Positions 8,623-25,803 of a DNA stretch of 27,883 nucleotides are shown in pieces; position 1 is the first letter of the stretch, and each line of letters begins with the position of its first letter. Below the pieces are notes generated by a model. It was not told where the DNA came from. It did no database searches and saw only the letters and a list, made by a program, of their open reading frames with translations. The stretch is from Opitutaceae bacterium (GTDB lineage: Bacteria; Verrucomicrobiota; Verrucomicrobiia; Opitutales; Opitutaceae), in NCBI GenBank assembly GCA_031254955.1, contig JAIRTK010000113.1, positions 1-27,883 of the forward strand, read 5' to 3'. The position numbers were made by a program, and so were the translations under genes.

Positions 8623-10260
8623 ATGAAAAGTCTCCGCCTGCCCCTTGTCTTTATAATTTGCGCGCTCCCCTCCGCCGGCAAAGCGCCATTCCGTATGCTT
8701 TATAACAATGACACGACCAATCTGGAAAGTTGCGTGGCGCCGTTTCATCCGAAGAACGCCCCCTTCACGGTTGACGTGCTGAAGGGTTCCATCGACGAGG
8801 CGGTGAGGGCGGGCGCGGATTGTTATATGTTTTCCCCCGGCCTGACCTGGGTGCCGTTGTGGAAAAGCAAAATCTATCCCCCGGCGGAGCACATGCAGTG
8901 GTGGCTCGACACCTTCAAACGCCCGATGAGCACCATCGGCGAATTTGTCCTGAACGGAGGCGACCTCGTGGAGGAATATGTCGCTTACTGCAAGGCGAAC
9001 AAGATAACCGCGTTCCTGTCACTTCGCGTAAACGATTATCATCACGTCGAGGACCTTGACGCCAGGCCCGGAGCGCGCATGCATCCCAGCTCGTGCCTCG
9101 CCGTGGACCGCTTTCGCCGGGAGCATCCTGAACTGCGGATCGCCGCCGCGGGCTTCACCCCGCCGGCCGGCTCGAATATTCCGCCCGCGCGCGATGCCAA
9201 TGTGATGAACTGGGGGCGAAAAGAAGTGCGCGAGCGACTGCTCGGCTTCATCCGCGAGCTTTGCGAAGGCTACGACATCGACGGGCTTGAATTGGATTTT
9301 CTGCGGCACTTCCGAATTTTCCCTGACGGCATTTCCAGCAAAAGGCGCGTGAAAATCGTCACCGACTTCACGCACGAAGTGAGAAAAATACTCGACCGCT
9401 CATCCCGCGAAGGGAAACGCCGCTGGCTGTGCGCGCGCGTGCCGGCCTTTTTCGAGGCGCAGGCGGCGCTGGGCATCGATTTGCCAAAGATGACCGCCGC
9501 CGGCCTGGATATGATAAATCTTTCGTCGAATTATTATACCGTGCAAAACGATCTCGAAATGGCGCGGGTGCGCAAGATGAATCCCGGCGCGGCGATTTAT
9601 CTGGAGATGACACATGTCACCTACGTAGGCCCGGATCCGCGCCGCGGCTTCGGCGACAGCAATTTTTACCGCCGCACGACCGACGAGCAGTTTTATACAA
9701 CGGCGCACCTGGCCTATGCCTCCGGACTGGACGGCGTCAGCTTGTTTAATTTCGCCTATTATCGGGAATACGGAGGCAGGCCCGAGCGCGGCCCGTTCAA
9801 CGAGCCGCCGTTTCATGTTATAAACAAACTGAAGGACCGCGGGTTCATCGCATCCTCGCCACAACACTATTTTCTCAGCGACCGCTGGCGCTCACCCTAT
9901 GGCAACCGCGTCCAGCTTGTCCTAAGCATGACGCGCGGGCGAAAAATGGAATTTGACATGATCATGGCCCCGCCCGCCCGGGGATGGAAAACCGATGCAA
10001 GGTTGCGCGTGCAATCGACGGAGGCGATGAGCGACGACACGCAGTTTGAAATTGAATGCAACGGCGTGAAACTCGCCGGCTCGAATGATGTTTCGGAGCC
10101 GTATGCGAATCCTTATCCGCCGCTGCTTGGCTCGCGGGAGACCTTGCGCGCGTGGAGGATTCCACGCGAAGCGCTGAAAATCGGGAAAAATATTTTTCAG
10201 ATAAGGCAGACGCAAGGCGGCCCGGCGCTCATTTATTTCATAGATGCCGCCATCGAATGA
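8623..10260 (+). CDS. Secreted family-10-like TIM-barrel glycoside hydrolase, copy 1
   Basis: A 545-residue protein with a short Sec signal peptide (MKSLRLPLVFIICALPSAG) and a TIM-barrel domain of the family-10-like glycosyl hydrolase type (GHL10/DUF187). The strand-4-like motif is DIDGLELDFLRH at residues 218-229, with acidic candidates D220, E223 and D225; another conserved acid is E394 in FNEPPFH. The last ~120 residues look like a beta-sandwich, with VSEPYANPYPP. It aligns along its whole length with the genes at 20737 and 24076, sharing YNNDTTN, WVPLWKSKIYPP, RVNDYHHVE, RRTTDEQF and FNFAYYREYG. The reaction is presumed to be glycoside cleavage outside the cytoplasm; the substrate is unknown. 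It follows the beta-mannosidase by 23 bp. The fold assignment is firmer than the activity. Confidence 0.78.
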   Translation: MKSLRLPLVFIICALPSAGKAPFRMLYNNDTTNLESCVAPFHPKNAPFTVDVLKGSIDEAVRAGADCYMFSPGLTWVPLWKSKIYPPAEHMQWWLDTFKRPMSTIGEFVLNGGDLVEEYVAYCKANKITAFLSLRVNDYHHVEDLDARPGARMHPSSCLAVDRFRREHPELRIAAAGFTPPAGSNIPPARDANVMNWGRKEVRERLLGFIRELCEGYDIDGLELDFLRHFRIFPDGISSKRRVKIVTDFTHEVRKILDRSSREGKRRWLCARVPAFFEAQAALGIDLPKMTAAGLDMINLSSNYYTVQNDLEMARVRKMNPGAAIYLEMTHVTYVGPDPRRGFGDSNFYRRTTDEQFYTTAHLAYASGLDGVSLFNFAYYREYGGRPERGPFNEPPFHVINKLKDRGFIASSPQHYFLSDRWRSPYGNRVQLVLSMTRGRKMEFDMIMAPPARGWKTDARLRVQSTEAMSDDTQFEIECNGVKLAGSNDVSEPYANPYPPLLGSRETLRAWRIPREALKIGKNIFQIRQTQGGPALIYFIDAAIE

Positions 10261-10313
10261 ACGTGTTCCCCCGTCCCGCCGCGTTTTCCCGCCAGCAACC
10301 AGCAATCACATTC

Positions 10314-10825
10314 ATGAAAAACCGGCTCGCCTCCTCCAGCCGCCGCCTGCGCATCCTGTCGCTCTGCGCCCCTGTCGCCGCCGCTTCGTCCGCCGCGGCG
10401 CCTGCGGCGCCTCCCGGTCAGCAGCGGGAGCAGGTTCACGCCGTCGAGCTGCCATTCGGATTTTGCCCCGATACCGGCGGCGGCGAGGGCCGTCGTGTAG
10501 AAATCGAGTTGAATAACGGGATTCGCAAGCGTGCGATGGCGAGGCGTTGTCGCGGCGCGAACCGCTGTGCTGGAAAATCGGCCCGCAGTGGGCGGTTCGT
10601 TCCGGCAACTGGAAGCTTATCAAACCCTTCGTCAACGCGCCCGCGATGCTTTTTGATTTGGACACGGATAACGCCGAGCAAAAAGACCTTGCCGGGAAGC
10701 ATCCTGAAAAATACGCCGGGCTTGAGGCCCAATGGAAAAGCTGGAACCAGCGGAACGAGAAAGCCCGCTGGGAAGACAAACGCTCCGACCTTCGCCAAGG
10801 CATCATGTATCAATCAAAACAATGA
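10314..10825 (+). pseudogene. Rearranged sulfatase remnant
   Basis: Three pieces of one secreted sulfatase appear out of order. A plausible signal peptide starts at 10314 (MKNRLASSSRRLRILSLC). On the plus strand, about 10529-10825 encodes the normal C-terminus of an arylsulfatase-like enzyme: QWAVRSGNWKLIKPF, then LFDLDTDNAEQKDLAGKHPE and a Trp-rich tail ending at a TGA. The segment that should immediately precede it in the protein lies in between but on the minus strand (10413-10520, listed separately). The catalytic core with the formylglycine motif CxPxR is absent. The gene is therefore dead through a large deletion plus a small inversion. A late plus-strand frame from TTG 10547 could still make a ~90-residue fragment, but that is not a functional enzyme. 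Confidence 0.75.
10413..10520 (-). pseudogene. Inverted internal fragment of the sulfatase
   Basis: Read on the minus strand this 108-bp segment gives 36 uninterrupted codons that start PVIQLDFYTTALAAAG and end LDGVNLLPLLTG. That is the conserved block found in formylglycine sulfatases shortly before the C-terminal W(A/R)xRxGxWKL block. The latter follows directly downstream but on the plus strand. Flipping the segment would restore the normal order. On the plus strand the same bases give an unremarkable Arg/Pro-rich peptide. The match is by motif only; the exact breakpoints (within about 15 bp) are uncertain. Confidence 0.7.
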
Positions 10826-11219
10826 ACACCAAACACAGATAAAAAAGGTTCCATTATGGAGTGCGGCGATTTATCGCCGCTTTTGACGGCGGGATTTATC
10901 CCGCCGCCAAGTCGCCGGCGCGACCTGTCATCCATCGTCGGCGGGGCGGGGAAATAAATTTCCCCGTCAAAAGCGGGACTGAAGTCCCGCACTCCATAAT
11001 AACCGCCTGCTTAACATCAATTCGTAATTCTTGACTGATGTTACGCGGCGGCGGCCTTTTGAACCATCAAATGAGACCTTCCTGCCTCCCTCGGTAACAC
11101 ATCCGCGCAATATCAGTTCTCAACCCACCATTCACCATTCTTAATTCCTCCATGAACTCTGGCGCCAAAACCAACCGGGCATTCAATATGGCGAGGAATC
11201 AAAACACTCTCCCACAACC
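10826..11219. other. Intergenic region holding the palindromic element and esterase leader
   Basis: This 394-bp gap holds the palindromic element described separately. About 10 bp beyond it is an 8-bp inverted repeat, TAACATCA at 11012-11019 and TGATGTTA at 11036-11043, with a 16-base loop. The rest, up to the esterase ATG at 11220, is AC-rich with a short direct repeat ACCATTC near 11130. I see no credible gene, no good sigma-70 promoter and no Shine-Dalgarno sequence. The esterase promoter should lie in the 11045-11215 part. Confidence 0.5.
10847..11004. repeat. MITE/REP-like palindromic element with terminal inverted repeats
   Basis: The ends carry a perfect 14-bp inverted repeat, ATTATGGAGTGCGG at 10853-10866 and its complement at 10987-11000. 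After a 2-base interruption it extends outward by GGTT/AACC (10847-10850 and 11001-11004). Inside are four perfect hairpins, each with an 8- or 9-bp stem and a 2-base loop: 10863-10880, 10888-10905, 10947-10966 and 10973-10990. An inner arm, CTTTTGACGG, also pairs with CCGTCAAAAG. No protein is encoded. It may be a non-autonomous transposable element, a REP/BIME-like sequence moved by a transposase acting in trans, or a bidirectional transcription stop. No target-site duplication is obvious. Confidence 0.8.
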
Positions 11220-12248
11220 ATGAAAATCACCACAATACTTCCATTGACGGCCTGCCTGCTGTCCTTGATTTCATTCGCGCGAGCCTCCGTCGTGGAATCG
11301 GCGGCGCGCACGCCGGAGCTTGAGCAAAAGCGCGAATACATCGCCACGGTTTCCAAACTCCACGGCGATCTGGTTTATAAAAAAGTCGGCGACCTTGAGC
11401 TGACACTCGACCTCATGCTGCCGCTTTCAACGACGGCAAAGAACGGACGGGAATTTTTCCCGGACGGCACGCCGGTCGTCATCTGGCTCCACGGCGGAGG
11501 CTGGCGCAACGGCTCGCGTTATTTTTCGGGCAACGACATCCGGTTTTTCGCCAACCACGGCATCGCGAGCGCGTGCGTTTCCTACCGGCTCGTGCAGGAC
11601 GGCAACGGCTGCACGGTGGAGACCTGCGTGATTGATTGTTTCGACGCGGTGCGCTGGCTCGTGAAAAACGCGGGGAACTATGGCCTGGCTCCGGGAAAAG
11701 TCTTTGTCTATGGCGGCTCGGCTGGCGCGCATCTGGCGCTGATGCTGGCATGGGCGGACGCGGATGCCTTTAAGGGCGATCCGGCGCTCGCGGACGCGAG
11801 GGTTGCGGTCGCCGGGGCGGTCGCCATCGCGCCCGTCGCGACACTCGCGGACCTGGACGCCCGCGATTCGATTGATTATCTGAACGAAAAGGGGCGCTTT
11901 GAAAAACTCATGGGCGGCAGCTTGCCGGAGAAGATGGATTTGGCGAAAAAAGCAAGCCCGCTGTATTGGTTGAAAAAAGACTCGCCGCGGACGCTCGTCA
12001 TCCACGGGACGCGCGACCAGCGCGTGAGCCTCAAGGGCAGTCTCATGCTTGAGGAGCGTGCGCGTGAGCTTGGCGCGGATTTCACGCTGTTGCGCGCACC
12101 GAACGCCGACCACAGCCAGCGCGGCGCAAGGGCGCCGTTGTGGCGGGTGCAGGGGCTGATCGTTTTGGACAACATGCTCGACATTGTCCAAAGCAGCTAT
12201 GGCGAGACGGACTGGGTGCGCCAGATTTGGCGCAGCGCGACGTTTTGA
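11220..12248 (+). CDS. Secreted alpha/beta-hydrolase esterase (BD-FAE/HSL-like)
   Basis: The 342-residue product has a Sec signal peptide (core ILPLTACLLSLISFA, cleavage probably after ARA or nearby) and an alpha/beta-hydrolase fold. The oxyanion motif HGGGW is at 91-95. The catalytic serine is S167 in VYGGSAGAHLAL, the acid is D266 in HGTRDQRV and the histidine is H298 in NADHSQ. HGGGW plus GGSAG places it with carboxylesterases of the hormone-sensitive-lipase/feruloyl-esterase-like group. Outside the cytoplasm it probably removes acyl groups (acetyl or feruloyl) from a polysaccharide or its fragments. It stands alone on the plus strand, separated from upstream genes by the palindromic element, and faces the glycyl radical operon convergently across 38 bp. 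Confidence 0.85.
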   Translation: MKITTILPLTACLLSLISFARASVVESAARTPELEQKREYIATVSKLHGDLVYKKVGDLELTLDLMLPLSTTAKNGREFFPDGTPVVIWLHGGGWRNGSRYFSGNDIRFFANHGIASACVSYRLVQDGNGCTVETCVIDCFDAVRWLVKNAGNYGLAPGKVFVYGGSAGAHLALMLAWADADAFKGDPALADARVAVAGAVAIAPVATLADLDARDSIDYLNEKGRFEKLMGGSLPEKMDLAKKASPLYWLKKDSPRTLVIHGTRDQRVSLKGSLMLEERARELGADFTLLRAPNADHSQRGARAPLWRVQGLIVLDNMLDIVQSSYGETDWVRQIWRSATF

Positions 12249-12286
12249 AATTCGCGACATGCCGTCGTCGGACGGGCCGGCAGGTT

Positions 12287-13177
12287 TCAGCGTGACACGG
12301 GGATTTTTGTGAGGACGGCGAGTTGGCGGACCCATTTGTCCGCGAGGTCTTCCTTTACCGCCGACAAGCCGCCGAGTTTGTAGTCGCGGCCAATCCGTCG
12401 CGCCTTGGAGCGTCCCCAAGGGTGGAAGGGCATGATGTCTATTTGGAGAATGTTTTTCAGGCGATTTGCGAGCGCGGCGATGGCTTCAAAATGTTCGGAG
12501 CGGTCGTTGTGGCCGGGGATGATTGGACAGCGCAGGATGGTTTTTCCGCCGGCGGCATCCAGGAGTCGGAGGTTTTCGAGGATGCGTTTGTTGGAAACGC
12601 CGGTGTATTCGCGGTGGCGGGCGTCGTCGATTTCCTTGATGTCATAGAGAAAGATGTCCGCGCAGCCGAGGAGGCTGTTGTATTTTTCAAAGTCGGCGAA
12701 GCCGGAGGTGTCGAGGCAGCAGTGGAGTCCGCCGGCCTTTGCCGCGAGCAGGAGCGCGCGGGTGAACTCGTATTGCAGCATGGGCTCGCCGCCGGAAAGG
12801 GTGAGCCCGCCGCCGGAACGGTCGTAGTAGGGTTTGTCGAGGAGGACGGTTTCGAGCACTTCGCCGGCGGAGCGCCACGCGCCGAGACGCGCGAGGGCGC
12901 CCGACGGACAGAAGGGCAGCTTGCCGGCGCAGGATTTTTTGCGGATGAAAATATGCTTTCCGGCGATGAGCCGGTGGCACTCGGGACACTCGCTCATGCA
13001 GTTGCCGCAGAGCCGGCATTTTTGTTCGTCGTAAGCGATTTCCGGAAACGGGGAAATGGATTCCGGATTGTGGCACCAAAGGCAGTTGAGCGGGCAGCCC
13101 TTGAGGAAAACGGTGGTGCGGATGCCGGGGCCGTCGTTGATGGAGAATTTCTGGATTTCGAGGACGAGGCCGCGCAT
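12287..13177 (-). CDS. Glycyl radical enzyme activating protein (radical SAM)
   Basis: A 296-residue radical-SAM activase that cleaves S-adenosylmethionine to put the radical on the glycyl radical enzyme encoded just upstream. The SAM-cluster motif CxxxCxxC is C28-C32-C35 in GCPLNCLWCHNPES, preceded by the activase signature FSINDGPGIRTTVFLKGCP. The SAM-binding GGE motif is in LTLSGGEPMLQ. A ferredoxin-like insert has C54, C57, C60, C64, C67, C83 and C90. That is one cysteine short of the eight needed for two full [4Fe-4S] auxiliary clusters, so one cluster may be missing or have an unusual ligand. It lies 61 bp after the partner gene on the same strand, the usual arrangement. Cytoplasmic and oxygen-sensitive. 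Confidence 0.93.
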   Translation of the reverse strand: MRGLVLEIQKFSINDGPGIRTTVFLKGCPLNCLWCHNPESISPFPEIAYDEQKCRLCGNCMSECPECHRLIAGKHIFIRKKSCAGKLPFCPSGALARLGAWRSAGEVLETVLLDKPYYDRSGGGLTLSGGEPMLQYEFTRALLLAAKAGGLHCCLDTSGFADFEKYNSLLGCADIFLYDIKEIDDARHREYTGVSNKRILENLRLLDAAGGKTILRCPIIPGHNDRSEHFEAIAALANRLKNILQIDIMPFHPWGRSKARRIGRDYKLGGLSAVKEDLADKWVRQLAVLTKIPVSR

Positions 13178-13238
13178 GGGATTTATAGGGGGCGACTTAA
13201 TTCGACGTGATTCGGCTTAAGCCGGGTCAGGGCAAAGC

Positions 13239-15590
13239 TCACTCATACATTGTCCGGGCGAGGATTTCCTTCTGGATATTTTGGTCGAGGTTGACGAAGC
13301 GCGCGGTCCAGCCGCCGACGCGCACGAGGAGGTTCGGGTATTTTTCGGGGTGAATCATCGCGTCCTCAAGGTCGCCGCGGTTCAGGCAGGTGATCATCAG
13401 GTGGATGCCGCCGGTCTCGAAATAGGTTTGGATGGCGGTTTTGAATTTTTCCAGGTTTTTGCCGGTGAGGAGGTTTTTGGAGACTTTCAGATTTTGCACG
13501 AAACCGCTGTGTAACTTGAACTGCTTCTTCATCGAGTTAAGCAGCGCGGTGAGGCCACTGTGGTCGGCGCCTGCGGTGGGGGCGTTGCCAACGGCGAGCG
13601 AGTCGCCCGCCTTACGACCGTCCGGCGAGGCGGCCATGCCGGCACCATAGCGCACGCCGCCTGGGTTGAGGTTGCAATTCAGAAAAAAATCCAGATCGCA
13701 TTGTTTGGCTTTGGAGGCGACGTTTTCATTCACAAAACGGCAGAGGTCGGCGTAAATATCGTCCACGTAGGCGTCGTCGTTGCCGAATTTCGGGCAATCA
13801 AGCATCATGCGGCGCTCCTTTTCGTGACCGTCAAAATTGGCGTCAATGATTTTGACGATCTGATCGAGCGTCAACTTCTTGTCATCGTAAACGAGTTTCT
13901 TGATGGCGGCGAGGCTGTCGGCGGTATTGGTGAGGCCGAAGGTTTCCACCTGGCTGCCGATGTAGCGGACGCCACCATCGAAGATGCCTTTGCCACGCGC
14001 GATGCAATCGTGCGTGAGGATGCTGGTGAAGAGGAACGCGGAGGTCGCGGCATGAATGTCGTTTTCCAGTTTATTCCGATGCGCGAAGAGCCCGTTTGTG
14101 TAATCAATCTGGCGTCTCACGGCGTCGTAGAGTTTTTCGTAAGTATCAAAGTTCGAAAGCGGACCGGTGCGCAGACCACGGTATTCGCGGACTTTCGGGT
14201 TCCAGCCGTCGTGCAGGACGAGGTCGAGCGCGCTGAGGTAAGTGATGATGTTGTTCGGCGAGCTGATGCTTTTGCTGTCAATCTGGATTTCGCCGCAGCC
14301 TTGCGGTATATAATCCTCCGCTTCCTGCATGGAGACGTTGTATGCTTTCGCGCACATGGGGATGTGCTCGTCGTCATTATAAAGCGTGGGCGAGACGCAG
14401 CCGGCGGCGATGAGTTCGAGCGCCTTGTCGAAGAGCGCGGGGTTTTGCCCTTTATGGAAACGCAGCGTGACGTTCGGTTCCTGCTCCTTCAACTCGAGTG
14501 TCACTTCCATTGCGGCCATCGCAAACTGGTCGGCGTTTTCAGGATTTCTGCGGCCTTTTCCGCCGATGATGATGCGGCAGTTGTTGATGGCGACGCGGAA
14601 GCCGTCCTTGAACTGGTCGGCAATAATGCGCCAGAGGGAGCGGAGCAGGTCCTTGGCTTCCTCGCGTGTGAGCGCGCCGGTGGCGATGTCATTGACGAAG
14701 AAGTCGCCGAGATAGACGTCGGCCCGTCCGTAATTGGCTGAGTCGGAGCAGATGACATATAGCCAGAAAAGCTGAATGGCCTCGCGGAGGCTGGCGGGTT
14801 TGTTGACGGCGATGTTGTCGAGGGCAACGGCCATTTGACGCAGTTCGTCCCTGCGCTTTTCGGTCGTGGTCACCGAGGCGGCTTGTTCACGGGCGTGAGC
14901 AGCGTAGTAGCGGCAGACATCGGCGAGGGTATCGAGAGCCATGAGCGCGGCGCGGCGGAATTCGGCATCGCCAGCGGTGCCGTTTTGGATTTCGACGCGT
15001 AGACCGGGGATGCCGAGGCGGAGGAGTTTGTCGAAATCAATCGAGAAGCAGCAAAGGCGGAAAAAGTGAGTGGCGTATTGAGCGGGGCCGACATTGTTGA
15101 CGCGGCTCATGCCTTTGACGAATTCTTCGCCGAGGCTCAACATGTATTTCGTCATTGGGCTGTGTTTTTCCCAGAAGGCACAGATTTCGAGGGCGTCCTT
15201 GTGGCGCGGGTCGGTTTCCGGGAGTTTGCCGGCGATTTCGTGAAGGGATTGGTAGTTGTAAATATAACCGCCGATTTCGCGCTGGAGAATGGAGCGGAGG
15301 TAGGCGTCGTGCGGGGAGACTTCGGTGTCGGGGCGGTCGTCGTCGCGCAACGCGGGGATGGCGGTGTTCACAATGCCTTCGTTGAGGAAGGCGACGAGGG
15401 GATGATAGAGCACGCGTCCGGCGAAGAGGTCGTAGTCGCGAAGCGGGTTGCAGAGGGCGGGATATTGCTCGCGGAGGCAGGCGGCCTCGCGGATGGCGGG
15501 ATGCTTGTCGAGGTTGGCGCGGTAGGCGCGGGTGAAGTTGCTGGCGAGGTCGAGTTTGCGCTGCTCGGCGGCAGTGAGAGTGTCGGACAT
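13239..15590 (-). CDS. Glycyl radical enzyme, PFL/dehydratase family, unknown substrate
   Basis: A 783-residue glycyl radical enzyme, about the length of glycerol/propanediol dehydratases. The active-site thiyl cysteine is C432 in YIPQGCGEIQID. The C-x-E arrangement (C432, E434) is the one known from eliminase-type members such as choline lyase and diol dehydratases, which normally read GCVEP; here a Gly replaces Val and Ile replaces Pro. It is not pyruvate formate-lyase, which has adjacent Cys-Cys. The radical glycine is G760 in VRVGGWTARF, 24 residues from the C-terminus, with Trp where Tyr is more common. The activase follows directly. The reaction is likely a radical dehydration or C-X bond cleavage of a small polyol or sugar-derived molecule; the substrate cannot be assigned. 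Confidence 0.93.
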   Translation of the reverse strand: MSDTLTAAEQRKLDLASNFTRAYRANLDKHPAIREAACLREQYPALCNPLRDYDLFAGRVLYHPLVAFLNEGIVNTAIPALRDDDRPDTEVSPHDAYLRSILQREIGGYIYNYQSLHEIAGKLPETDPRHKDALEICAFWEKHSPMTKYMLSLGEEFVKGMSRVNNVGPAQYATHFFRLCCFSIDFDKLLRLGIPGLRVEIQNGTAGDAEFRRAALMALDTLADVCRYYAAHAREQAASVTTTEKRRDELRQMAVALDNIAVNKPASLREAIQLFWLYVICSDSANYGRADVYLGDFFVNDIATGALTREEAKDLLRSLWRIIADQFKDGFRVAINNCRIIIGGKGRRNPENADQFAMAAMEVTLELKEQEPNVTLRFHKGQNPALFDKALELIAAGCVSPTLYNDDEHIPMCAKAYNVSMQEAEDYIPQGCGEIQIDSKSISSPNNIITYLSALDLVLHDGWNPKVREYRGLRTGPLSNFDTYEKLYDAVRRQIDYTNGLFAHRNKLENDIHAATSAFLFTSILTHDCIARGKGIFDGGVRYIGSQVETFGLTNTADSLAAIKKLVYDDKKLTLDQIVKIIDANFDGHEKERRMMLDCPKFGNDDAYVDDIYADLCRFVNENVASKAKQCDLDFFLNCNLNPGGVRYGAGMAASPDGRKAGDSLAVGNAPTAGADHSGLTALLNSMKKQFKLHSGFVQNLKVSKNLLTGKNLEKFKTAIQTYFETGGIHLMITCLNRGDLEDAMIHPEKYPNLLVRVGGWTARFVNLDQNIQKEILARTMYE

Positions 15591-15719: not shown

Positions 15720-16853
15720 TTAAAGAACGGTTTTTGAGGTTAAGGGACGGGCACATGGGCTGTCATTGCCACCCGTCTGAGAACGTATTTTGACCAGAGG
15801 CGGGCGGCGGTTTCGGAGGTATCGGTCATTTGTAAGGACGGCGAGGCCCCCGGGTGGCAGGTTGTCGAAAATCCAGTTGAGATCGGCGGGAGGAATTTTG
15901 CCCCAGATGAGCAGCGGGCGCTCGCGCAAGATGGCGAGATGTTTTGAGTGGATCTCCCGGGCGGAGGGGCCACCGGTATCGATGTGCATTTCCACGAGGC
16001 TCACCCCCATTCTCAGATAAGCGTCAATGGGGACGAAACCGGTGGAGTGGGTGTGAATGGCAATATGCGGGAAGGCAGTGGTAACGCGGCGATCGCAAGG
16101 TTCGATGAATTGCTCGTAGAGGCTGGGTGAAAGCAGGGCAGCGGCGTCCTCTTGGTGCCAGACGGTTCCGGCGGGCATCCATGCGTTGTAGAAGAAGCTG
16201 CCGACGCCACTGTGGAAAAGCGGGATGCGGTCGAGTTGGAATTTTCCGGCAGCAATAAAAAATTCGGTTAATTTCTCCGAAACCCGGCGGACTTCCTCCG
16301 GACGGTCAAACATGGCCATAACGAACTCGGTGCTGCCATAGAGGGAAGAAAGCAGGTCGGAGATGCCACGCATCCGGGTTGTCGCTAGCGGGAAGCGTCC
16401 GTCTGCGTGTTTGGCGAGGGCATCGAGCATTTGTCCCATGAGTCGCGCCCAAGGGGAATCAGGGTCGAAGATGGGGACGTGGTCCGGGGAAAAGCGGGCT
16501 GGGGTTTCGGCGCGAATGGAACCGGTGGTATGGCTGACGAAGAGCGGGCACCCGAGGAGCGCCTCGAGCCAGGGGATGCCCCAGAAGGCGCTGCCGGAGA
16601 AGATGAAATCGCCACCGAGTTTTTCGGTTTCGAGGAAAAGCCTTTCGGCGTCGGCGGCATAGGCGTTGGGATCGAAATCGGCAGGCACCAGCGGACGCTC
16701 TTCAGGCAGTGAGCGGCTGGAAGGATAGCGCGGGAGCGGGAACTCGCTTCCGGGCGAAAAGCCGAAAAGCGGACGCTTGTTTTCGCGGCGGAGAAAGGAG
16801 CGGAAAAGCTCAACGCGTTGGGCGATGGGTTTGTGCAGGATGGCAACGTTCAT
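15720..16853 (-). CDS. Uroporphyrinogen decarboxylase (URO-D) fold protein, apparent frameshift near C-terminus
   Basis: The frame encodes 377 residues of the URO-D superfamily, which contains heme-pathway decarboxylases and corrinoid-dependent methyltransferases (MtaA/CmuA type). Typical stretches are FIFSGSAFWGIPWLEALLGCP, split here as FSGSAFWG and WLEALLGCP, together with IAIHTHSTGFVPIDAYL and MGVSLVEMHID. Verrucomicrobia commonly carry such proteins in sugar loci; their role is not settled. After residue 341 the sequence loses family character (RYLRNRRPPLVKIRSQTGG). A neighbouring minus-strand frame reads MTDTSETAARLWSKYVLRRV, a natural C-terminal helix. Dropping one A from the run at 15829-15831 joins them and moves the stop to 15740. 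This is either a real frameshift or a sequencing error. No signal peptide. Confidence 0.75.
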   Translation of the reverse strand: MNVAILHKPIAQRVELFRSFLRRENKRPLFGFSPGSEFPLPRYPSSRSLPEERPLVPADFDPNAYAADAERLFLETEKLGGDFIFSGSAFWGIPWLEALLGCPLFVSHTTGSIRAETPARFSPDHVPIFDPDSPWARLMGQMLDALAKHADGRFPLATTRMRGISDLLSSLYGSTEFVMAMFDRPEEVRRVSEKLTEFFIAAGKFQLDRIPLFHSGVGSFFYNAWMPAGTVWHQEDAAALLSPSLYEQFIEPCDRRVTTAFPHIAIHTHSTGFVPIDAYLRMGVSLVEMHIDTGGPSAREIHSKHLAILRERPLLIWGKIPPADLNWIFDNLPPGGLAVLTNDRYLRNRRPPLVKIRSQTGGNDSPCARPLTSKTVL

Positions 16854-17711: not shown

Positions 17712-18689
17712 TTATCCTTTTTTGATTTCATCGACAAGCGCATCGACGGTGGTGTAGGCGACGGCAATGTGCGTGTCGGCCGCGCCGTAGTAGATGGCGA
17801 GGCGGTTGGTGGCGCTGTCCACGAGGGCGGCGCAGGGGAAGACTACATTGGGAACATGGCCGACGGTTTCGTAGTCTGTTTCGGGCCAGAGAATCGGGCC
17901 GGCTTTTTTGGCGATGACTTTCCATGGCTCATCGAGGTCGAGCAGCATGGCGCCGGCGCTGTAAACGAAGCCGTTGCAGGTGTCCATGACGCCGTGGTAA
18001 ATCGTCAGCCAGCCTTCGCTGGTTTCGATGGGGGTGGCGCCGCCGCCGATCTTGGTGCGCTGCCAGCGGGATGCGCCGCGTTCGAGGACGAGGCGGTGCC
18101 TGCCCCAGAAGGTGAGGTCGGGGCTGGCCGAATAGAAGATGTCGCCGAAGGCGTTGTGGCCGGGGCCGCTGGGGCGTGAAAGCATGCCGTAGAAACCACC
18201 GATTTTCCTGGGGAAGAGAACGCCGTTTCGATTGAAGGGGAGGAAGGCGTTTTCCAGCTGCTCAAAGGTTTTGAAGTCGCGGGTCTTGGCGATGCCGATG
18301 GTGGGGCCGTAGTAGCCGTTGCACCAGTGAACGAAGTAGGCGTCGTCGATTTTGGCGATGCGGGGGTCGTAGCCGTATTCCGTTTCGCGTTTATCGGCGG
18401 GACAGGAGAGGAAGGGCAGCGGCTTTTCGTCGAGCTTCCAAATCAGGCCGTCGTCGCTGTGGCCGATATGGATGGCGGGCAGCACTTCCTCGTAGTCGAG
18501 GCGAAAGACGCCGATGAATTTGCCGTTGAAAGGAACGACGGCGGAATTGTAAACGGAGCGCGCGCCGGGGAAGGGGCGGCGGCCAATGACGGGGTTCCCT
18601 GTGTGCCGCCAGATGTAGCGGTCGCAACCGGCAGGACGTTCCTGCCAAGGGATGTTGGGCAACTCGGAAGCGAGGACTTTGATGGACAT
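17712..18689 (-). CDS. GH130 family beta-mannoside phosphorylase-like enzyme
   Basis: The 325-residue product is a five-bladed beta-propeller of glycoside hydrolase family 130. Family features are NSAVVPFNGKFIGVFR, the catalytic-acid segment YGYDPRI with D108, the NRNGVLFPRKIGG block with basic residues suited to phosphate binding, and KIGGGATPIETSEGWL. Characterised members phosphorolyse beta-1,4- or beta-1,2-mannosides to mannose 1-phosphate; a minority hydrolyse. The frame is open much further upstream (to 19010), but MSIKVLASELPNIPWQERP at 18689 matches a normal family start and the upstream extension is low-complexity and palindromic. No signal peptide, so cytoplasmic, like the beta-mannosidase at 6122. 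It is the first gene of the minus-strand operon. Confidence 0.87.
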   Translation of the reverse strand: MSIKVLASELPNIPWQERPAGCDRYIWRHTGNPVIGRRPFPGARSVYNSAVVPFNGKFIGVFRLDYEEVLPAIHIGHSDDGLIWKLDEKPLPFLSCPADKRETEYGYDPRIAKIDDAYFVHWCNGYYGPTIGIAKTRDFKTFEQLENAFLPFNRNGVLFPRKIGGFYGMLSRPSGPGHNAFGDIFYSASPDLTFWGRHRLVLERGASRWQRTKIGGGATPIETSEGWLTIYHGVMDTCNGFVYSAGAMLLDLDEPWKVIAKKAGPILWPETDYETVGHVPNVVFPCAALVDSATNRLAIYYGAADTHIAVAYTTVDALVDEIKKG

Positions 18690-18850
18690 GGATGATGATC
18701 GAGGGTTGTTGGTTGTTGGATGTGCTTTATGGAGCGGGAAATGGATCAATGGGGAATGGCTGGAGGACGTGCGGGAGACAGAAGGCCTGGGGAAAACATG
18801 TGGTATTTTGGATGCGTTGGGAGATTCAGCGGAATGTTTACGGCGATTGC

Positions 18851-19536: not shown

Positions 19537-20217
19537 CTACAGGATATTCTTTTCCAGAGCGGCAATGGCTTGCTCAAGCTGGCGCTTCTTGATGGCGGAG
19601 ACAATGGCGCAATGCTCCTCGTAGCTCTCCATCCCGCGCTTGAGAAGCTTTTTGGCTTGGAGCGCCGTGAGGGATAGGGATTCGTCGTTGCCTTCCGTCA
19701 AGTAGTTGGTTTGCGAGTAGTGATGGGGGAGAAGCAAACACGTGATGAGCGGAAGCCAGACCGCAATCAGACTGCCGTCGCCCACGCGCTCAAGTATCGA
19801 GCGATGAAAATTCATGTCGCACTCAAGGATGTTCGGTATGTCCGCGCGCTCGCATATCGTCTTGAATTGCTCCAGATGCGTCTCCCATTCGGCCACGTCG
19901 GCATCGGTGATTTTCGGGAAAATCCGTCGCAGCGAGTGCATCTCTATTTGCTGGCGCAGCGTCACGAAAAGCGCTCGCGTCTCCTTCGATGCGCGTTTTT
20001 TCACACGCACGCCGCGGTTTGGCTCGGCCACCAGCAGGCCCTCCTTGGTCAATTGCAACAACGCGTCGCGTATCGGCCCACGGCTGACTCCATAGCGTTT
20101 CGCCAAGTGCTGCTCGCGCAACGCCGAGCCTTCGCCGTATCCTCCCGACAGGATCTCGGTGCGGAGATGGTTGACAATTTGCTCGCGAATGGTGCGGACA
20201 ACAGGGACACTTCTCAT
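19537..20217 (-). CDS. GntR family regulator, FadR/FCD subfamily
   Basis: A 226-residue transcription factor. Residues about 8-75 are the winged helix: VRTIREQIVNHLRTEILSG, split here as IREQIVNHL and LRTEILSG, then LREQHLAKRYGVSRGPIRDAL and EGLLVAEPNRGVRV. The rest is an all-helical FCD ligand domain with metal/effector-type residues such as ECDMNFHRSIL and YEEHCAIV. Such proteins are usually repressors released by a sugar acid or other carboxylate intermediate. I prefer the ATG at 20217 (MRSVPVVRTI) over 20268 because the winged helix normally starts within ten residues. It lies between the mannoside operon and hydrolase copy 2 and probably controls one or both. No effector can be named. 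Confidence 0.9.
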   Translation of the reverse strand: MRSVPVVRTIREQIVNHLRTEILSGGYGEGSALREQHLAKRYGVSRGPIRDALLQLTKEGLLVAEPNRGVRVKKRASKETRALFVTLRQQIEMHSLRRIFPKITDADVAEWETHLEQFKTICERADIPNILECDMNFHRSILERVGDGSLIAVWLPLITCLLLPHHYSQTNYLTEGNDESLSLTALQAKKLLKRGMESYEEHCAIVSAIKKRQLEQAIAALEKNIL

Positions 20218-20378
20218 GGATTGGCTCAATGTAACTGAGCAACACGCCGGATTAAGGCAGGTTGTCAATCAAATTACACGATGGACGAATAATCGCGCGA
20301 AGCATTTTGCAGGCGGCCGATTGAATTCTATCCTGATTTTAATGAACTAGATAAAAAACGCGCGATTGATAATTGAAG

Positions 20379-20736: not shown

Positions 20737-22482
20737 ATGATGAACCTCGAACAGCCAAAATCTTCAAACACCCCCGCCATGCTTGCCGCGCTCCTCGCCG
20801 CGGCGTTCCTGCACCTTCAGCCGGAGAGCCATGCCGCGGCCAATCCGCCCGCACCCGTGCCCGCGCGCGCCCAGGCGCCCTTTCGCGTTCTCTACAACAA
20901 CGACACCACCAATATCACCGCGTGCATCAGCCCCTTTTTCAAAAAAGGCCAGGCCTTCGCCCCTGAAATGATTGACGCCTCGGTCGCCGAGGCGGCCGGC
21001 GCCGACGCGCACATGTTTTCGCCGGGACTCGTGTGGGTGCCATTTTGGAAAAGCAAACTTTATCCGCCTGATGAACATTTTCGCTGGTGGCGGAACACCT
21101 TCCCCAACGGTCGGTTGCATCCGATTGCGCATTATCTGCTCGCTGGTGGCGACATCGTCGCGGACTTCCTGAAAAGCTGCCGCGCGCAGGGTGTGGCCGC
21201 TTTTGTCTCCGTGCGCCTCAACGACTATCACCGCGTCGAATTTCTGGACGCCCCCGGCGACGCCAGACTTGAGGAATTCGACTCGATTTGCATCGACCGT
21301 TTTCGACGCGGGCATCCCGAGTGGCGCCTGCATCCGCCCGCCATTCGCGACCGCGACTCACGCATGGCGGACGACGCCGACTCGCGCTCCGTTTTTGAGG
21401 CGCGTGACAGCGGTGTCATGGACTGGGCCGAACCCGGCGTGCGCGCGCGCATGGCCGCCTTCATCGACGAACTCGCCGAAAACTACGACATCGACGGCAT
21501 CGAACTCGATTTCCTGCGACACTACCGCTTCTTTCGCCCGGACGGCGCGCTCACTCCCGCCGAACGCTCCCGCATCATGACCGGCTTCGTCTCGCAAGTC
21601 CGCCGGACGCTCGACCGCACCGCGCCTGCCGGCAAACGCCGCTGGCTCTGCGTGCGCATCCCCGCCGTGCTCTCGCTGCACGCCCCGCTCGGCATCGACG
21701 CCGCCGCGTTTGCGGACGCCGGTGTGGACATGTTTAACCTCTCCTCGAATTACTTCACCGTGCAGCAGGATGTCGATGTTGCGGCCGTGCGCCGCCTCGC
21801 GCCACACGCCTCGATTTATCTCGAAATGAACCAGTGCACCGCCAAAGGCCCCGATGTCTCGCGCGGGCATGGCGACAACTTCATCTACCGCCGCACCACC
21901 GACGAGCAATTCCTCACCACCGCCCGCCTCGCCCTCGCGCGCGGAGCCGATGGCGTCAGCCTGTTCAACTTCGCCTATTACCGCGACTACGGCGAAGACC
22001 CCTCGCGCGGCCCTTTCAACGAGCCCCCCTTCCACATCCTCCCGCAACTCGCCGACCCCGCCCGCGTCATGACCGCCACGCCCTGCCACTACTATCTCGT
22101 CCCCATGTGGCGCTCGCCCTACGGCAACCCCGTGCAACTTCCCAAAAAACTTCATCCCGGCGACACCGCCGCGCTCCACATGGACCTCGTCGCGCCGGCA
22201 TCCGGCTGGCAAAAAAACGCCCGCCTCCGCGTCCAGACAAAAGACCTCATGCCCGCCGCCGCCACTTGGTCCGCCAGCCTCAACGGCGTTGCCCTCGCGC
22301 CGTCCGCCGATATTTCCGAACCGCTTCCTCCGCCCTATCCGCCCATGCTTGGCACCCCGCAAACCCTCCGTGCGTGGAGCATTCCGCCCGCGCTTCTCAA
22401 AGACGGCCAAAACAAAATCGAAATCACCCTGCGCAAAGGCCCCGCCGCCGAGATCATTTTCGCCGACATCATCACCGAATAA
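20737..22482 (+). CDS. Secreted family-10-like TIM-barrel glycoside hydrolase, copy 2
   Basis: At 581 residues this is the longest of three paralogues (others at 8623 and 24076). A long N-terminal region with a hydrophobic stretch MLAALLAAAFLHL and a cleavage-like SHAAA is followed by a Pro/Ala linker, then the TIM-barrel domain starting at FRVLYNNDTTN. The key motif is DIDGIELDFLRH at 251-262 (acids D253, E256, D258), with E429 in FNEPPFH. It shares nearly every motif with copy 1, including RRTTDEQF and FNFAYYRDYG, and is visibly closer to copy 1 than to copy 3. A unique acidic insert (RDRDSRMADDADSRS) is present before VMDWAEPG. The ATG at 20737 is followed directly by a second ATG at 20740; either may serve. 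The esterase gene starts 13 bases after its stop. Confidence 0.8.
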   Translation: MMNLEQPKSSNTPAMLAALLAAAFLHLQPESHAAANPPAPVPARAQAPFRVLYNNDTTNITACISPFFKKGQAFAPEMIDASVAEAAGADAHMFSPGLVWVPFWKSKLYPPDEHFRWWRNTFPNGRLHPIAHYLLAGGDIVADFLKSCRAQGVAAFVSVRLNDYHRVEFLDAPGDARLEEFDSICIDRFRRGHPEWRLHPPAIRDRDSRMADDADSRSVFEARDSGVMDWAEPGVRARMAAFIDELAENYDIDGIELDFLRHYRFFRPDGALTPAERSRIMTGFVSQVRRTLDRTAPAGKRRWLCVRIPAVLSLHAPLGIDAAAFADAGVDMFNLSSNYFTVQQDVDVAAVRRLAPHASIYLEMNQCTAKGPDVSRGHGDNFIYRRTTDEQFLTTARLALARGADGVSLFNFAYYRDYGEDPSRGPFNEPPFHILPQLADPARVMTATPCHYYLVPMWRSPYGNPVQLPKKLHPGDTAALHMDLVAPASGWQKNARLRVQTKDLMPAAATWSASLNGVALAPSADISEPLPPPYPPMLGTPQTLRAWSIPPALLKDGQNKIEITLRKGPAAEIIFADIITE

Positions 22483-22495
22483 AAACTGGATTCCC

Positions 22496-24049
22496 ATGCA
22501 ACTCCCACCGCGCCTCACAAGACCTGCAATCGCCATCCTTGCCCTCGTCTCTCTTGATGCACTGAAGGCCGGCGTCACGCCCGCGCCGCTTTTTGCAAAC
22601 AACGCCGTTCTCCAGCACGGCAAACCCGTCCCGGTCTGGGGCAAGGCCGCCGCCGGCGAAACCGTCACCATAACCTACCTCGGCCAAAGCAAAACCACCA
22701 TCGCCTCCACCAATGGCCAATGGATGATTGCCCTCGACCCGATGGAGCCTCGACAGGAGGGCACGCTCGTCATCAAAGGCGAAAACACGCTCGCGTTTTC
22801 CAATGTCGTCACCGGCGAAGTGTGGCTCGCCTCCGGCCAGTCCAACATGGCGCTCCAGCTCAAGGCCACGGCAAACGCGAGGGCGGAAGCCGCCACTGCC
22901 GACTGCCCCGGCATACGCGAGTTCAAAGTCATGCTCGCCGTCTCCGCCGTTCCCCTCGACAGCCTCTCCGGCCGCTGGATGCCTTGCGCTCCCAAGAACG
23001 CCGGCGACTACAGCGCCGCGGCCTATTATTTTGCCCGTGAATTGCACGCCGCGCTAAAAATGCCCGTCGGCATCATCACCAGCGCCAAAGGCGGCACGCC
23101 CATCGAGGCGTGGATGAGCGCCGTCGCCCTCAAGGAAAGCGGTCTCTCCGGCACGGTCGCCTCGCGCTGGCGGGAGATGATGCGCGCCTATCCTGAAAAA
23201 CTGGCCGCCTACAACACCAAGACCCTTCCCGACTGGGAAAAGAAAGTCGAAGCCGCCCGCGCAGCCGGAAAAACACCGCCGCCCAAGCCCTCCCTGCCGT
23301 CCGGCGGACCCGAGGACTACCGCATCCCGACAGGCCTCTATGGAGGCATGATTCATGCGCTCATCCCCTGCTCATTGCGAGGCGCCATCTGGTATCAAGG
23401 TGAAGCCAACACCGCCCATTCCGACGAATACCCCGCGCTCTTCGAGGCCATGGTCTCTGACTGGCGGCGTTCCTGGCGGCAGGGCGACTTCCCTTTCTTC
23501 TACGTGCAATTGCCCAACTACGAAATTCCCGCGCGCGACGATCGCGGGCGCAACCTCTGGCCCGGTCTGCGCGAAGCGCAAGCCAGGTCACTTGACCGGC
23601 TCCCCAACACCGGCATGGCCGTCACCATCGACATCGGCGACCCCGGCGACGTCCACCCCGTGAATAAACGCGACGTTGGCAACCGCCTCGCCCGCCTTGC
23701 CCTCGCCAAAGTTTACGGACGCGACATCGCCTGGTCCGGCCCCGTCGCCCGCTCCGCGACTCGCGAAAACGACGCGCTCCGCATTGCCTTCGGACATGCC
23801 GGCGGCGCTATAAAAACCCGCGACGACCAGCCCCCCGGCGGATTTGAAATCGCCGGCGCCACCGGGAAATTTTATCCAGCCACCGCCCGCATTGAGAACG
23901 GCACGGTGATCGTCCGGGCGCCTGACATCAGCGCTCCCGCGCGCGTCCGCTACGCGTGGAAAAACAACCCGTCCGACGCCAATCTCATCGGCGCGGACAA
24001 CCTCCCTGCCCCGCCATTCACACTCAACGCCGGTTCTCCCGCGAACTGA
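22496..24049 (+). CDS. Secreted sialate O-acetylesterase-like carbohydrate esterase
   Basis: A 517-residue protein of the sialate O-acetylesterase (SASA/DUF303) family with a Sec signal peptide (core AIAILALVSLDAL). An N-terminal beta domain with LFANNAVLQHGKPVPVWG precedes the SGNH-type catalytic domain. The nucleophile is S116 in LASGQSNMAL, the oxyanion segment is WYQGEANT around 299-306, and D385 and H387 lie in GDVHPVNKRDVG. All are family-typical. Many members in polysaccharide loci deacetylate plant or algal glycans rather than sialic acid, and the surrounding genes favour that view here. The ATG at 22496 is chosen because the signal peptide begins there; the frame is open from 22289 inside the upstream gene. 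Confidence 0.9.
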   Translation: MQLPPRLTRPAIAILALVSLDALKAGVTPAPLFANNAVLQHGKPVPVWGKAAAGETVTITYLGQSKTTIASTNGQWMIALDPMEPRQEGTLVIKGENTLAFSNVVTGEVWLASGQSNMALQLKATANARAEAATADCPGIREFKVMLAVSAVPLDSLSGRWMPCAPKNAGDYSAAAYYFARELHAALKMPVGIITSAKGGTPIEAWMSAVALKESGLSGTVASRWREMMRAYPEKLAAYNTKTLPDWEKKVEAARAAGKTPPPKPSLPSGGPEDYRIPTGLYGGMIHALIPCSLRGAIWYQGEANTAHSDEYPALFEAMVSDWRRSWRQGDFPFFYVQLPNYEIPARDDRGRNLWPGLREAQARSLDRLPNTGMAVTIDIGDPGDVHPVNKRDVGNRLARLALAKVYGRDIAWSGPVARSATRENDALRIAFGHAGGAIKTRDDQPPGGFEIAGATGKFYPATARIENGTVIVRAPDISAPARVRYAWKNNPSDANLIGADNLPAPPFTLNAGSPAN

Positions 24050-24075
24050 TCCACCCCTAAAATTCCGCCTGGTAA

Positions 24076-25803
24076 ATGACCAAACAAAATCTCGAAGTAT
24101 CGACAACGCTCACGTCCAGTTCGCGGCGTGGCTTTATAAAAACCGCCACCGGAACCATGCTCCTCGCCGCCGCCGCGCCGCGGACTTTTTTGCGTGCCGC
24201 CGACGAAAGCGAAAAGCATCCAGCCGCGTCTGCGCGCAAGCCGTTTCCCTATCGCGTCGTTTATAGCAACGACACCACGCATATCCTCGCATGCACCAGT
24301 CCGTATCACAAACAGGGCGAAGGCTTCCGCCCGGAAATGCTCGAAAGCTCCGTCGATGAAGTTTCCGGTCTCGTCGATGCACATTTTCTCCAGCCGGGCG
24401 TGGCATGGGTGCCGTGGTGGAAAAGCGCTGTGTACCCGGCGCGGGAACACTACCGCTGGTTCGAGGAACGCTACGGCGTGCCTCCCGACACTTGGGGCGA
24501 ATACATGCTCGCCGGCGGCGATCTTGTTGAGCTATTTGTTCAACGCTGCCGCTTCCGCAAACAAGCCCCCTTCGTCTCGTTGCGCCTTAACGACGTTCAC
24601 TACAAGGAATACGTCAACGCCCCCAAAGGCACTCCCATCAGCATCTACGCCTCGCAGGGGCTCTCGCGTTTCTACGAACAAAACCAAAAATGGCGCATTG
24701 GCGACAACATGGATGACTGGATGCTGCGCGGCCTCAACTGGGCCGTGCCCGAAGTTCGCGCTCACAAGTTCGCCTTCCTCGAGGAAATTTGCGCCAATTA
24801 CGACATCGAAGGCATCGAACTCGATTTCATGCGGTATTTCAGCTACTTCCAACTTAACCGCACCACGCCGCGCGAACGCTGCGCCATCATGACCGCCTTC
24901 GTTGCCGACGCGCGCACGATGCTCGACCGCACCACGCGCGCCGGACGCGGACGCCGCTGGCTTGCCGCCCGCGTGCCCGCCCTCACAGTCACGCACGACA
25001 TTCTCGGCATCGACCTGCCCGCGATGGTCGAGGCTGGCCTCGACGTGGCCACACTCTCCACGAACTACTTCGCCACGCAGCAAAGCGATTTGCCTGCGAT
25101 TCGAAAAAGCATTCCAAGCGCGACCGTGCTCAACGAAGTGACACACGTCGTTTCGGTTGGCAAACCCGTGAAACTGCCCGGCGCGCGCGAAGGCGATTTC
25201 TATGACACGCGCCGCGACCGCCGCGCCACGCCGCAACTCCTCGCCACCGCCGCGCACCTTGCCTACGCAAACGGCGCCGATGGCGTGAGTGTTTTCAACT
25301 TCCCCTACTACCGCGAATACGGTGTGCCCCACCAAGGTCCGTTCAGCGAGCCGCCCCTCCACATGCTCGGCCTGCTCGGTGAGCGGGACCGCCTCGCGCT
25401 CATCGCGCGGCAGCACTACATCCTCACGCCCGGCTGGCGCGGCCCCGGCTTCAAACAACCGCTTCCGCGCGCGTTTACCGCGGGAGAACCGGAAACCTTT
25501 GTTCTTAATTTCTCCCCGCCGGTCACCGGTTGGAGAAACGTCGGGCGCCTGCGTATCCAGGGCGAATCCTCGCTTGGCATCTCTTCATGGAGCATTCGCC
25601 TCAACGGCTATGCGCTCCGCTCCACACCCGACGTTTCCGAGCCCTACGCCAACATTTATACGCAACAACTCGGCTCTCCTGGCGAACTCCGTGCATGGTT
25701 TGTGCGGCCAGACGCGCTTGTCGCCGGTGTAAACACGCTGGAAATCATGCTCGAAAAAGGTTCCGCGCCGCGCATCACGTGCATCGACCTCTGGATTTCC
25801 TGA
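24076..25803 (+). CDS. Tat-exported family-10-like TIM-barrel glycoside hydrolase, copy 3
   Basis: A 575-residue paralogue of the genes at 8623 and 20737. Its N-terminus has a twin-arginine signal, SSRRGFIKTATGTMLLAAAAP, split here as SSRRGFIKTA then TGTMLLAAAAP, so it should be exported folded by the Tat route, unlike the other two. The barrel motif is DIEGIELDFMRY at 243-254 (E245 replaces the first Asp of the others; E248 and D250 are kept). E425 in FSEPPLH is kept, but the RRTTDEQF block of copies 1 and 2 is changed to RRDRRATPQLL, losing its Asp-Glu pair. The C-terminal sandwich keeps VSEPYANIY. These changes suggest a different substrate or cofactor. It starts 26 bp after the esterase. 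Confidence 0.8.
   Translation: MTKQNLEVSTTLTSSSRRGFIKTATGTMLLAAAAPRTFLRAADESEKHPAASARKPFPYRVVYSNDTTHILACTSPYHKQGEGFRPEMLESSVDEVSGLVDAHFLQPGVAWVPWWKSAVYPAREHYRWFEERYGVPPDTWGEYMLAGGDLVELFVQRCRFRKQAPFVSLRLNDVHYKEYVNAPKGTPISIYASQGLSRFYEQNQKWRIGDNMDDWMLRGLNWAVPEVRAHKFAFLEEICANYDIEGIELDFMRYFSYFQLNRTTPRERCAIMTAFVADARTMLDRTTRAGRGRRWLAARVPALTVTHDILGIDLPAMVEAGLDVATLSTNYFATQQSDLPAIRKSIPSATVLNEVTHVVSVGKPVKLPGAREGDFYDTRRDRRATPQLLATAAHLAYANGADGVSVFNFPYYREYGVPHQGPFSEPPLHMLGLLGERDRLALIARQHYILTPGWRGPGFKQPLPRAFTAGEPETFVLNFSPPVTGWRNVGRLRIQGESSLGISSWSIRLNGYALRSTPDVSEPYANIYTQQLGSPGELRAWFVRPDALVAGVNTLEIMLEKGSAPRITCIDLWIS

Follow-up and report, generated by a model that had tools for sequence, protein, structure and literature searches.

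Three predicted GH156 enzymes and an adjoining M55/HpcH/TIM gene module in an Opitutaceae bacterium: a possible catabolic route for 2-ulosonic acids

The window analyzed here is a stretch of 27,883 nucleotides from an Opitutaceae bacterium (Verrucomicrobiota; assembly GCA_031254955.1, contig JAIRTK010000113.1) that carries three paralogous genes for putative exported glycosidases and, upstream of the first of them, a short metabolic gene module. All three paralogues are open frames on the + strand that align end to end: copy 1 at 8623..10260 (545 aa), copy 2 at 20737..22482 (581 aa, with a start that may instead be 20779) and copy 3 at 24076..25803 (575 aa), copies 2 and 3 being 52% and 41% identical to copy 1. 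An original prediction made from this DNA, that one locus holds three full-length paralogues, is thereby borne out. When the genome that the window comes from was searched, exactly three places were returned, the copies themselves (E 0, 7e-175 and 7e-118), and no fourth; because that assembly consists of 574 contigs and is 68.7% complete, further copies may exist in it. Two other genomes of the same genus, G001 (72% complete) and the near-complete G002 (96%), hold 10 matches (part of them fragments) and 4 matches, respectively, to a profile of the clade to which the copies belong.

The module upstream of copy 1 begins with an M55 (DppA-type) metallohydrolase (2226..3050, +; PF04951 E 1.6e-51, PDB entry 1hi9 E 3e-16), followed by an HpcH/HpaI pyruvate aldolase (3069..3857, +; PF03328 E 6.5e-36) whose matches include 4b5s (E 1.4e-45) and the 2-dehydro-3-deoxygalactarate aldolase 1dxe (E 7e-43), and by a TIM-barrel sugar isomerase/epimerase of the AP_endonuc_2 type (3854..4765, +) with a distant likeness to D-psicose 3-epimerase (E 1e-4). 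Judged by the patterns of their families, the M55 and TIM proteins seem to have intact metal-ligand motifs and HpcH an intact set of active-site motifs. The HpcH/HpaI protein is a candidate aldolase for a released 2-keto-3-deoxy acid.

The family placement of the three copies is clear from a sequence search of the PDB, in which each gave a single strong match, 6rzd, the structure of EnvSia156 (E 3.3e-20, 1.1e-19 and 5.4e-25 for copies 1, 2 and 3). A profile built from 29 relatives recovers the same entry at E 1.4e-36, the next match being an alpha-galactosidase at E 0.005. EnvSia156 is presented, in the available text of its reports, as an inverting exosialidase and the founder of GH156 (PDB 6rzd, 6s00, 6s04, 6s0e and 6s0f; PMC6811678, PMC6254351). 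Scans of the copies against Pfam and NCBIfam gave nothing above cut-off: copy 2 reaches 10.8 bits for GHL10 (PF02638), copy 1 reaches 15.2 bits for GH18 (cut-off 29.6) and copy 3 has no sub-threshold match, so that the GHL10 cut-off of 27.9 bits is failed by all three, copies 1 and 3 lacking any match to it. The earlier view of an unplaced GHL10/DUF187-type group therefore does not hold; the family is not new, GH156 having a solved and mutated member. Similarity to the founding member runs over the catalytic domain, and both the Asp/His dyad and the Arg/Arg/Asn triad are present in the alignment. On these grounds the three genes are assigned, by sequence, to GH156 as members with export signals that form a sister clade of EnvSia156.

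In EnvSia156 the base is Asp14 and the acid His134, the carboxylate is held by Arg129, Arg202 and Asn346, and variants at Asp14 are inactive on an aryl substrate while those at His134 are impaired (available text of PMC6811678). The alignment predicts the corresponding residues as D30, H140 and R135/R228/N376 with shell residues R381/E382 in copy 1, D56, H165 and R160/R261/N411 with R416/D417 in copy 2, and D66, H175 and R170/R253/N408 with R413/E414 in copy 3. Positions were numbered through P0121, a protein 95% identical to EnvSia156 over the searched stretch and with the same numbering. Within the window's clade, represented by the three copies and the 119 best-scoring of 939 relatives found, Asp14, Arg129, Asp132, His134, Arg202, Arg246 and Asn346 do not vary among the 122 sequences; on the EnvSia side, represented by the 120 best-scoring of 1257 sequences found, the same seven are kept in 120 of 120, except for Asp14 with 118 and two gaps. 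A mixed alignment of 92 rows has just 16 invariant columns, and all seven active-site residues are among them. We also tabulated 108 other proteins from the loci, with matches of 100 bits or lower and eight proteins of twice-fetched places dropped and one G150 place (L053, L151) counted twice; D14/R129/H134/R202/N346 is complete in 92 of them, while 13 show a gap at Asp14 alone and 3 deviate otherwise.

Since these active-site residues are invariant, all three copies are predicted to be active, copy 3 included. This bears on the earlier suggestion that copy 3 had lost an acid pair. The loss itself is real, in that Gln replaces the Glu of the DEQF motif, which copies 1 and 2 have and copy 3 lacks, and the change of DIDG to DIEG in copy 3 is likewise confirmed; what does not follow is a loss of the catalytic pair, because the acid pairs that had been named are other residues and Asp14/His134 is kept. 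DEQF and DIDG were considered as catalytic acid pairs and rejected, the catalytic residues of EnvSia156 lying elsewhere and being intact in all copies. The DEQF glutamate (E355 in copy 1) is Glu in 116/122 sequences of the clade and 109/120 on the EnvSia side. The other motifs said to be shared by the copies read in general as written, apart from the first, which is YSNDTTH in copy 3.

The export regions differ as had been described. Copy 1 has a short signal resembling that of the general secretory (Sec) pathway and copy 2 a Sec-like signal followed by a Pro/Ala linker, both recognized by eye, and copy 3 carries the twin-arginine translocation (Tat)-like motif SRRGFIK near its start. The long N-terminal region attributed to copy 2 may be a matter of start-site choice, its relative P0008 beginning at the equivalent of the internal ATG at 20779. 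A Tat-like motif lies in the first 45 residues of 90/122 clade members (the same pattern is found in 1/122 and 0/122 in two control stretches) and of 21/120 sequences on the EnvSia side. The motif is thus the norm of the clade, which makes copy 3 the typical member and copies 1 and 2, without it, the odd ones.

In a tree of 114 rows (a quick IQ-TREE run with the Shimodaira-Hasegawa-like approximate likelihood ratio test, SH-aLRT, as its only support measure), copies 1 and 2 share one 13-row clade (support 100), in which each sits with different relatives of other origin; copy 3 is joined, across long branches, to a protein from a different Verrucomicrobiota genome (L064; support 99), and the EnvSia proteins lie outside a 90-row clade (support 100). 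Because the nearest relatives of each copy come from genomes other than the window's, the copies are old. Of the earlier interpretation, the idea of glycosidase-like hydrolases with export signals, kept as old paralogues, is supported, and a stepwise attack by the three copies would be a conjecture. A recent tandem duplication is ruled out by the same clustering, within the limits of this quick SH-aLRT-only method. An assembly artefact is ruled out as well, the copies differing by about half and G001 keeping the genes before copy 1 (L132). The G001 contigs read cover the surroundings of copies 1 and 2, with the place of copy 3 outside them; around copy 2, G001 (L131) keeps the genes, but a symporter and a 223-residue frame replace the URO-D-like and GDSL genes described below.

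The residues that read the sugar tell a different story from those that cut it. EnvSia156 contacts its ligand through Gln351 to the C5 acetamide, Thr352 and Trp279 to O4 and Cys53 to O9, with Phe278/Trp279/Phe203/Trp164 as leaving-group platform (available text of PMC6811678). Every one of the 122 sequences of the window's clade has Arg at position 351; 352 is Glu or Asp in 118/122, 279 is Tyr in 120/122, 278 is Ser, His or Asn in 111/122 and 53 is Leu or Val in 109/122; the EnvSia side has Gln351 in 55, Thr352 in 107, Trp279 in 106 and Phe278 in 119 of its 120 sequences. All three copies have Q351R, T352E/D, F278N and W279Y, and C53 becomes L, L and V, so that EnvSia156-like contacts are missing from the alignment at positions that in part also vary on the EnvSia side. 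Arg at 351 extends to 90/108 of the other locus proteins and to 18/18 GH156 proteins listed from loci with the gene module. From this pattern we infer that a 2-ulosonic acid would still be gripped while its C4, C5 and tail would be read differently.

It is also important to consider how often the gene module accompanies GH156. A six-frame profile search covered 79 loci with GH156 similarity, taken from the best 80 of 488 stretches. An M55 gene and a TIM isomerase lie near GH156 in five of the 79, namely L004, L005 (with a PfkB kinase) and the Clostridia loci L069, L072 and L078; HpcH is inside the module in L004 and L005 and lies about 6 kb from M55 in L078, and it was not found by this search in L069 or L072. 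A second arrangement, GH156 with a KDPG-type (2-keto-3-deoxy-6-phosphogluconate) aldolase and a PfkB kinase, occurs in another five of the 79 (L037, L040, L046, L051 and L077). In L129 of the congener G002, identity to the window's proteins is 79% for M55, 88% for HpcH and 84% for TIM, and just 34% for the GH156 protein that adjoins them.

As a test independent of GH156, the M55 protein was searched in 240 sampled Verrucomicrobiota genomes. Scores above 180 bits were reached in six genomes, one of them the window's; below these comes a gap down to 110. Among the other five, a TIM gene is no more than about 2 kb from M55 in 5/5 (directly adjoining it in three), GH156 is within 8 kb in 3/5 (G162, G133 and, with a GH156 gene divergent from the module, G188), HpcH within the stretch in 2/5, and a sugar kinase beside TIM in 3/5 (PfkB in G188, ROK in G133 and FGGY in G124). 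With a stricter GH156 threshold (E up to 1e-40, six candidates scored per genome), GH156 is within 8 kb on the same contig for 2/5 high-scoring vs. 0/43 lower-scoring M55 hits (Fisher 0.009). Altogether, M55, TIM and GH156 occur in nine loci besides the window (L132, which is the same as L004, L005, L129, L144, L147, L148, L069, L072 and L078), spanning Verrucomicrobiota and Clostridia, and an aldolase or kinase adjoins the module in 5/9 (L132, L005, L129, L144 and L148).

The canonical nan pathway for sialic acid consists of NanA, NanE, NanK and NagA. Neither NanE (PF04131) nor NanA (TIGR00683) exceeds its cut-off in any of the three genomes of the genus, and among 57 relatives NanE does so in one, whose genome gave no hit to the GH156 profile. 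As a separate observation, a genome of the same family with three GH156-profile matches carries a NanA-like gene about 1.3 kb from a PF07221 epimerase (L143, G009:C7:215000-230000), possibly a sialic acid cluster of the Bacteroides type.

Taken jointly, membership of GH156, the inverting exo mechanism and the link to the module seem probable to us. Because the base, the acid and the Arg/Arg/Asn set are kept in the alignment, the copies would remove a terminal 2-ulosonic acid in a single inverting step. Where EnvSia156 touches C4, C5, the glycerol tail and the leaving group, the clade has other residues, several of which are fixed within it; this suggests that the substrate is not, or not only, N-acetylneuraminic acid (Neu5Ac), and that it is not mainly Neu5Ac we favor only slightly. 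The sugar may be a sialic acid used by an unusual pathway or another ulosonic acid, such as 3-deoxy-D-manno-octulosonic acid (Kdo), 3-deoxy-D-lyxo-heptulosaric acid (Dha) or one of the legionaminic type, with a slight lean to the latter group, and the released acid is most likely split by a pyruvate aldolase other than NanA. In the scheme we propose, the apparently secreted GH156 enzymes would cut off the terminal 2-ulosonic acid with single-step inversion, M55 would deacylate the imported sugar, HpcH would cleave the product to pyruvate and a shorter sugar, and TIM would isomerize that sugar for phosphorylation by a kinase, which is found in other instances of the module. The module would then stand in for NagA, NanA, NanE and NanK, for the most part through members of other protein families, and the three copies might serve different linkages or acylated forms, which is a guess. 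To this full reading, of a widespread GH156 clade acting on a non-Neu5Ac 2-ulosonic acid and served by an M55/HpcH/TIM/kinase pathway as a largely non-orthologous nan replacement with parts common to Verrucomicrobiota and Clostridia, we would give a probability of roughly 0.4.

Several observations weigh against our main reading of family, mechanism and link to the module. The module is found in a minority of loci (5/79), its aldolase is missing in the three Clostridial instances, and the M55 score threshold was set after the gap had been seen. GH156 was not found in L145 (G246) or L146 (G124), in stretches of about 9-15 kb and with the G246 M55 gene at a contig end. In G133 the kinase of the module belongs to the ROK family, as does NanK. 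Among the GH156 proteins of module loci, the most divergent one (L144) shows a gap where Asp14 would be and His in place of Arg246, and that of L147 has Glu at Asp14. The shell contacts rest on alignment at about 24% identity, with C53 and Asn15/Ser16 near indels; moreover, because EnvSia156 grips C5 loosely and Q351 varies on its own side (Gln in 55/120), Q351R need not exclude Neu5Ac. NanE occurs in 7 of the 240 sampled genomes of the phylum and in 0 of the 14 with the window's GH156 clade, a zero that is weak alone because the overlap expected by chance is just 0.4 genomes. NanA at its strict cut-off is found in 0/57 relatives, yet weaker matches of the dihydrodipicolinate synthase (DHDPS) type occur in 56/57, and such paralogues could split an ulosonic acid. 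PF07221 epimerases are present in 8/16 genomes looked at, G001 among them and with a partial match in G000, and absent from the near-complete G002. Finally, the SASA-type neighbor fits sialic acid too.

In a rival reading, the copies are plain GH156 exosialidases that use the same mechanism on alpha-linked Neu5Ac, N-glycolylneuraminic acid (Neu5Gc) or 2-keto-3-deoxynonulosonic acid (Kdn) of glycoproteins, the sialic acid then passing either through a DHDPS paralogue that resembles NanA or to bacteria of other kinds, and GH130 and GH2 trimming an N-glycan core. The same catalytic five, the SASA gene between copies 2 and 3, the GntR/FCD regulator, and the GH130 of UhgbMP/TM1225 type together with the GH2 mannosidase-like protein all agree with it, and some sialidase producers lack genes for using the sugar, as stated in the available text of PMC10154618. 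It has to contend with the altered and partly fixed shell, with NanE at 0/3 in the genus and no PF07221 epimerase in G002, and with a screen of expressed human-gut GH156 proteins in which just 5/19 were sialidases and 14/19 had no sialidase activity (Mann 2022, as summarized in the available part of review PMC10298468), a result that leaves room for other GH156 substrates. We regard this reading as possible, though on balance doubtful.

Enzymes of the same mechanism acting on Kdo or Dha, from rhamnogalacturonan II side chains, Kdo-rich algal walls or bacterial lipopolysaccharide Kdo, strike us as possible too, but again doubtful. In their favor, the bulkiness of Leu/Val at the position of the O9 pocket points to a tail shorter than that of a nonulosonic acid, and 2-keto-3-deoxy acids would suit the HpcH/HpaI and KDPG-type aldolases and their kinases. 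Environmental Planctomycetota GH156 proteins are also described as likely to target plant glycans (available text of PMC11929135, citing Mann 2022). What speaks against Kdo or Dha is that no rhamnogalacturonan-II enzyme is recognized in the window, that M55 would have no obvious job on an unacylated sugar, and that the neighbors of GH156 elsewhere are of other kinds. In a Pfam census of direct neighbors in L005-L082 (125 proteins of 180-900 residues, of which 105 were scanned and 20, mainly from known module loci, left out), sulfatases (9), flavin adenine dinucleotide (FAD) oxidoreductases (8) and esterases are the commonest families, and the 25 commonest families include no glycosidase family except the sialidase-like BNR_2 (2/105). 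The weakest alternative, TIM-barrel glycosidases of a general GHL10 kind that would use the customary carboxylate pair, have a mechanism unrelated to that of GH156 and resemble it at the fold level only, can draw on the weak GHL10 and GH18 matches, on PF02638 labels in the precomputed annotation of some relatives and on the 22.0 bits of the divergent L144 protein, but with all scans below the GHL10 cut-off and the whole GH156 active site invariant over 92 sequences it is very improbable.

The remaining genes of the window are mixed in type. A TonB-receptor-like outer-membrane protein (1..2034, +) runs off the contig as a C-terminal part without a Pfam match of its own, and its relatives (L005:6685-9945, L129:11776-15036) are TonB-dependent receptors. 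Between the module and copy 1 lie a PATR-repeat protein (4750-6117, +) and, directly upstream of copy 1, the GH2 beta-mannosidase-like protein (6122..8599, +; open frame from 6050). Copy 1 is followed by a BD-FAE-type esterase (11220..12248, +), a glycyl-radical enzyme with its activase (12287-15590, -) and an adjoining URO-D-like (uroporphyrinogen decarboxylase-like) protein (15720-16853, -) just under the Pfam cut-off (21.6 vs. 23.9 bits), which was not seen on the matching G001 contig. The glycyl-radical enzyme reaches none of the listed NCBIfam cut-offs (best TIGR01774, 329.7 vs. 678.2 bits), and a 90% identical relative of it lies near GH130 in G001 (L131). A GDSL protein also lies between copies 1 and 2, as do the GH130 phosphorylase of the beta-1,4-mannoside type (17712..18698, -; closest solved structures 1vkd of TM1225, 4udg of UhgbMP and 5ayd) and the GntR/FCD regulator (19537..20268, -), which is divergent to copy 2. 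The SASA-type carbohydrate acetylesterase (22496..24049, +; open frame from 22289) separates copies 2 and 3, and an autotransporter beta-domain protein (25993-27816, -) follows copy 3; by best BLAST hit, autotransporter-like genes are also next to or near GH156 in G001 (L134) and G002 (L129, L130).

Neighbor counts over 102 loci, made with a codon-bias gene caller that missed HpcH in L004 and M55 in L147, place the BD-FAE-type esterase family within four genes of GH156 in 12/102 and the SASA family in 8/102. FAD-dependent oxidoreductases (PF12831) are so placed in 14/102 (17/530 near vs. 2/294 far genes), in loci that include L019, L022, L028, L031, L035, L043-L045, L069, L072 and L078.

To our knowledge, few GH156 members have been characterized. 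Judged from titles and the beginnings of abstracts, none of the GH156 papers listed reports a non-sialic substrate, and the top-ranked papers on M55 hydrolases or HpaI aldolases in a context of this kind name no such module by title or abstract start, which is no proof of its absence; the M55/HpcH/TIM/kinase catabolic pathway may be undescribed in the literature found. The Arg at the C5-contact position (122/122) marks a clade that is in part tied to a gene module, and so makes the question of what non-sialidase GH156 enzymes act on directly testable. It also advises caution, as not every GH156 gene in an environmental genome need be a sialidase, and it offers the clade as candidate hydrolases for less common ulosonic acids.

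Among known systems, EnvSia156 is the closest. The copies resemble it in sequence over most of the protein and have Asp14, His134, Arg129/Arg202/Asn346, the buried Arg246 and Asp132 in common with it. They differ from it in overall identity (about 24%), in Q351 to Arg, T352 to Glu/Asp, F278 to Asn, W279 to Tyr and C53 to Leu/Val, in their export signals, P0121 starting at the barrel, and in their place beside a non-nan module. With GHL10 (PF02638)/DUF187 proteins they have in common the TIM-barrel hydrolase type, and some GH156 relatives bear the PF02638 label, whereas the copies are below its cut-off or without a match and their conserved motif set is that of GH156. The canonical nan pathway is matched in its presumed functions, an aldolase, an epimerase/isomerase, a sugar kinase and an amide hydrolase beside an enzyme of a sialidase family; it differs in that the window has no kinase and no NanE and would use an HpcH/HpaI aldolase, an AP_endonuc_2 isomerase and an M55 hydrolase instead, while the ROK kinase of the G133 module is of NanK's own family.

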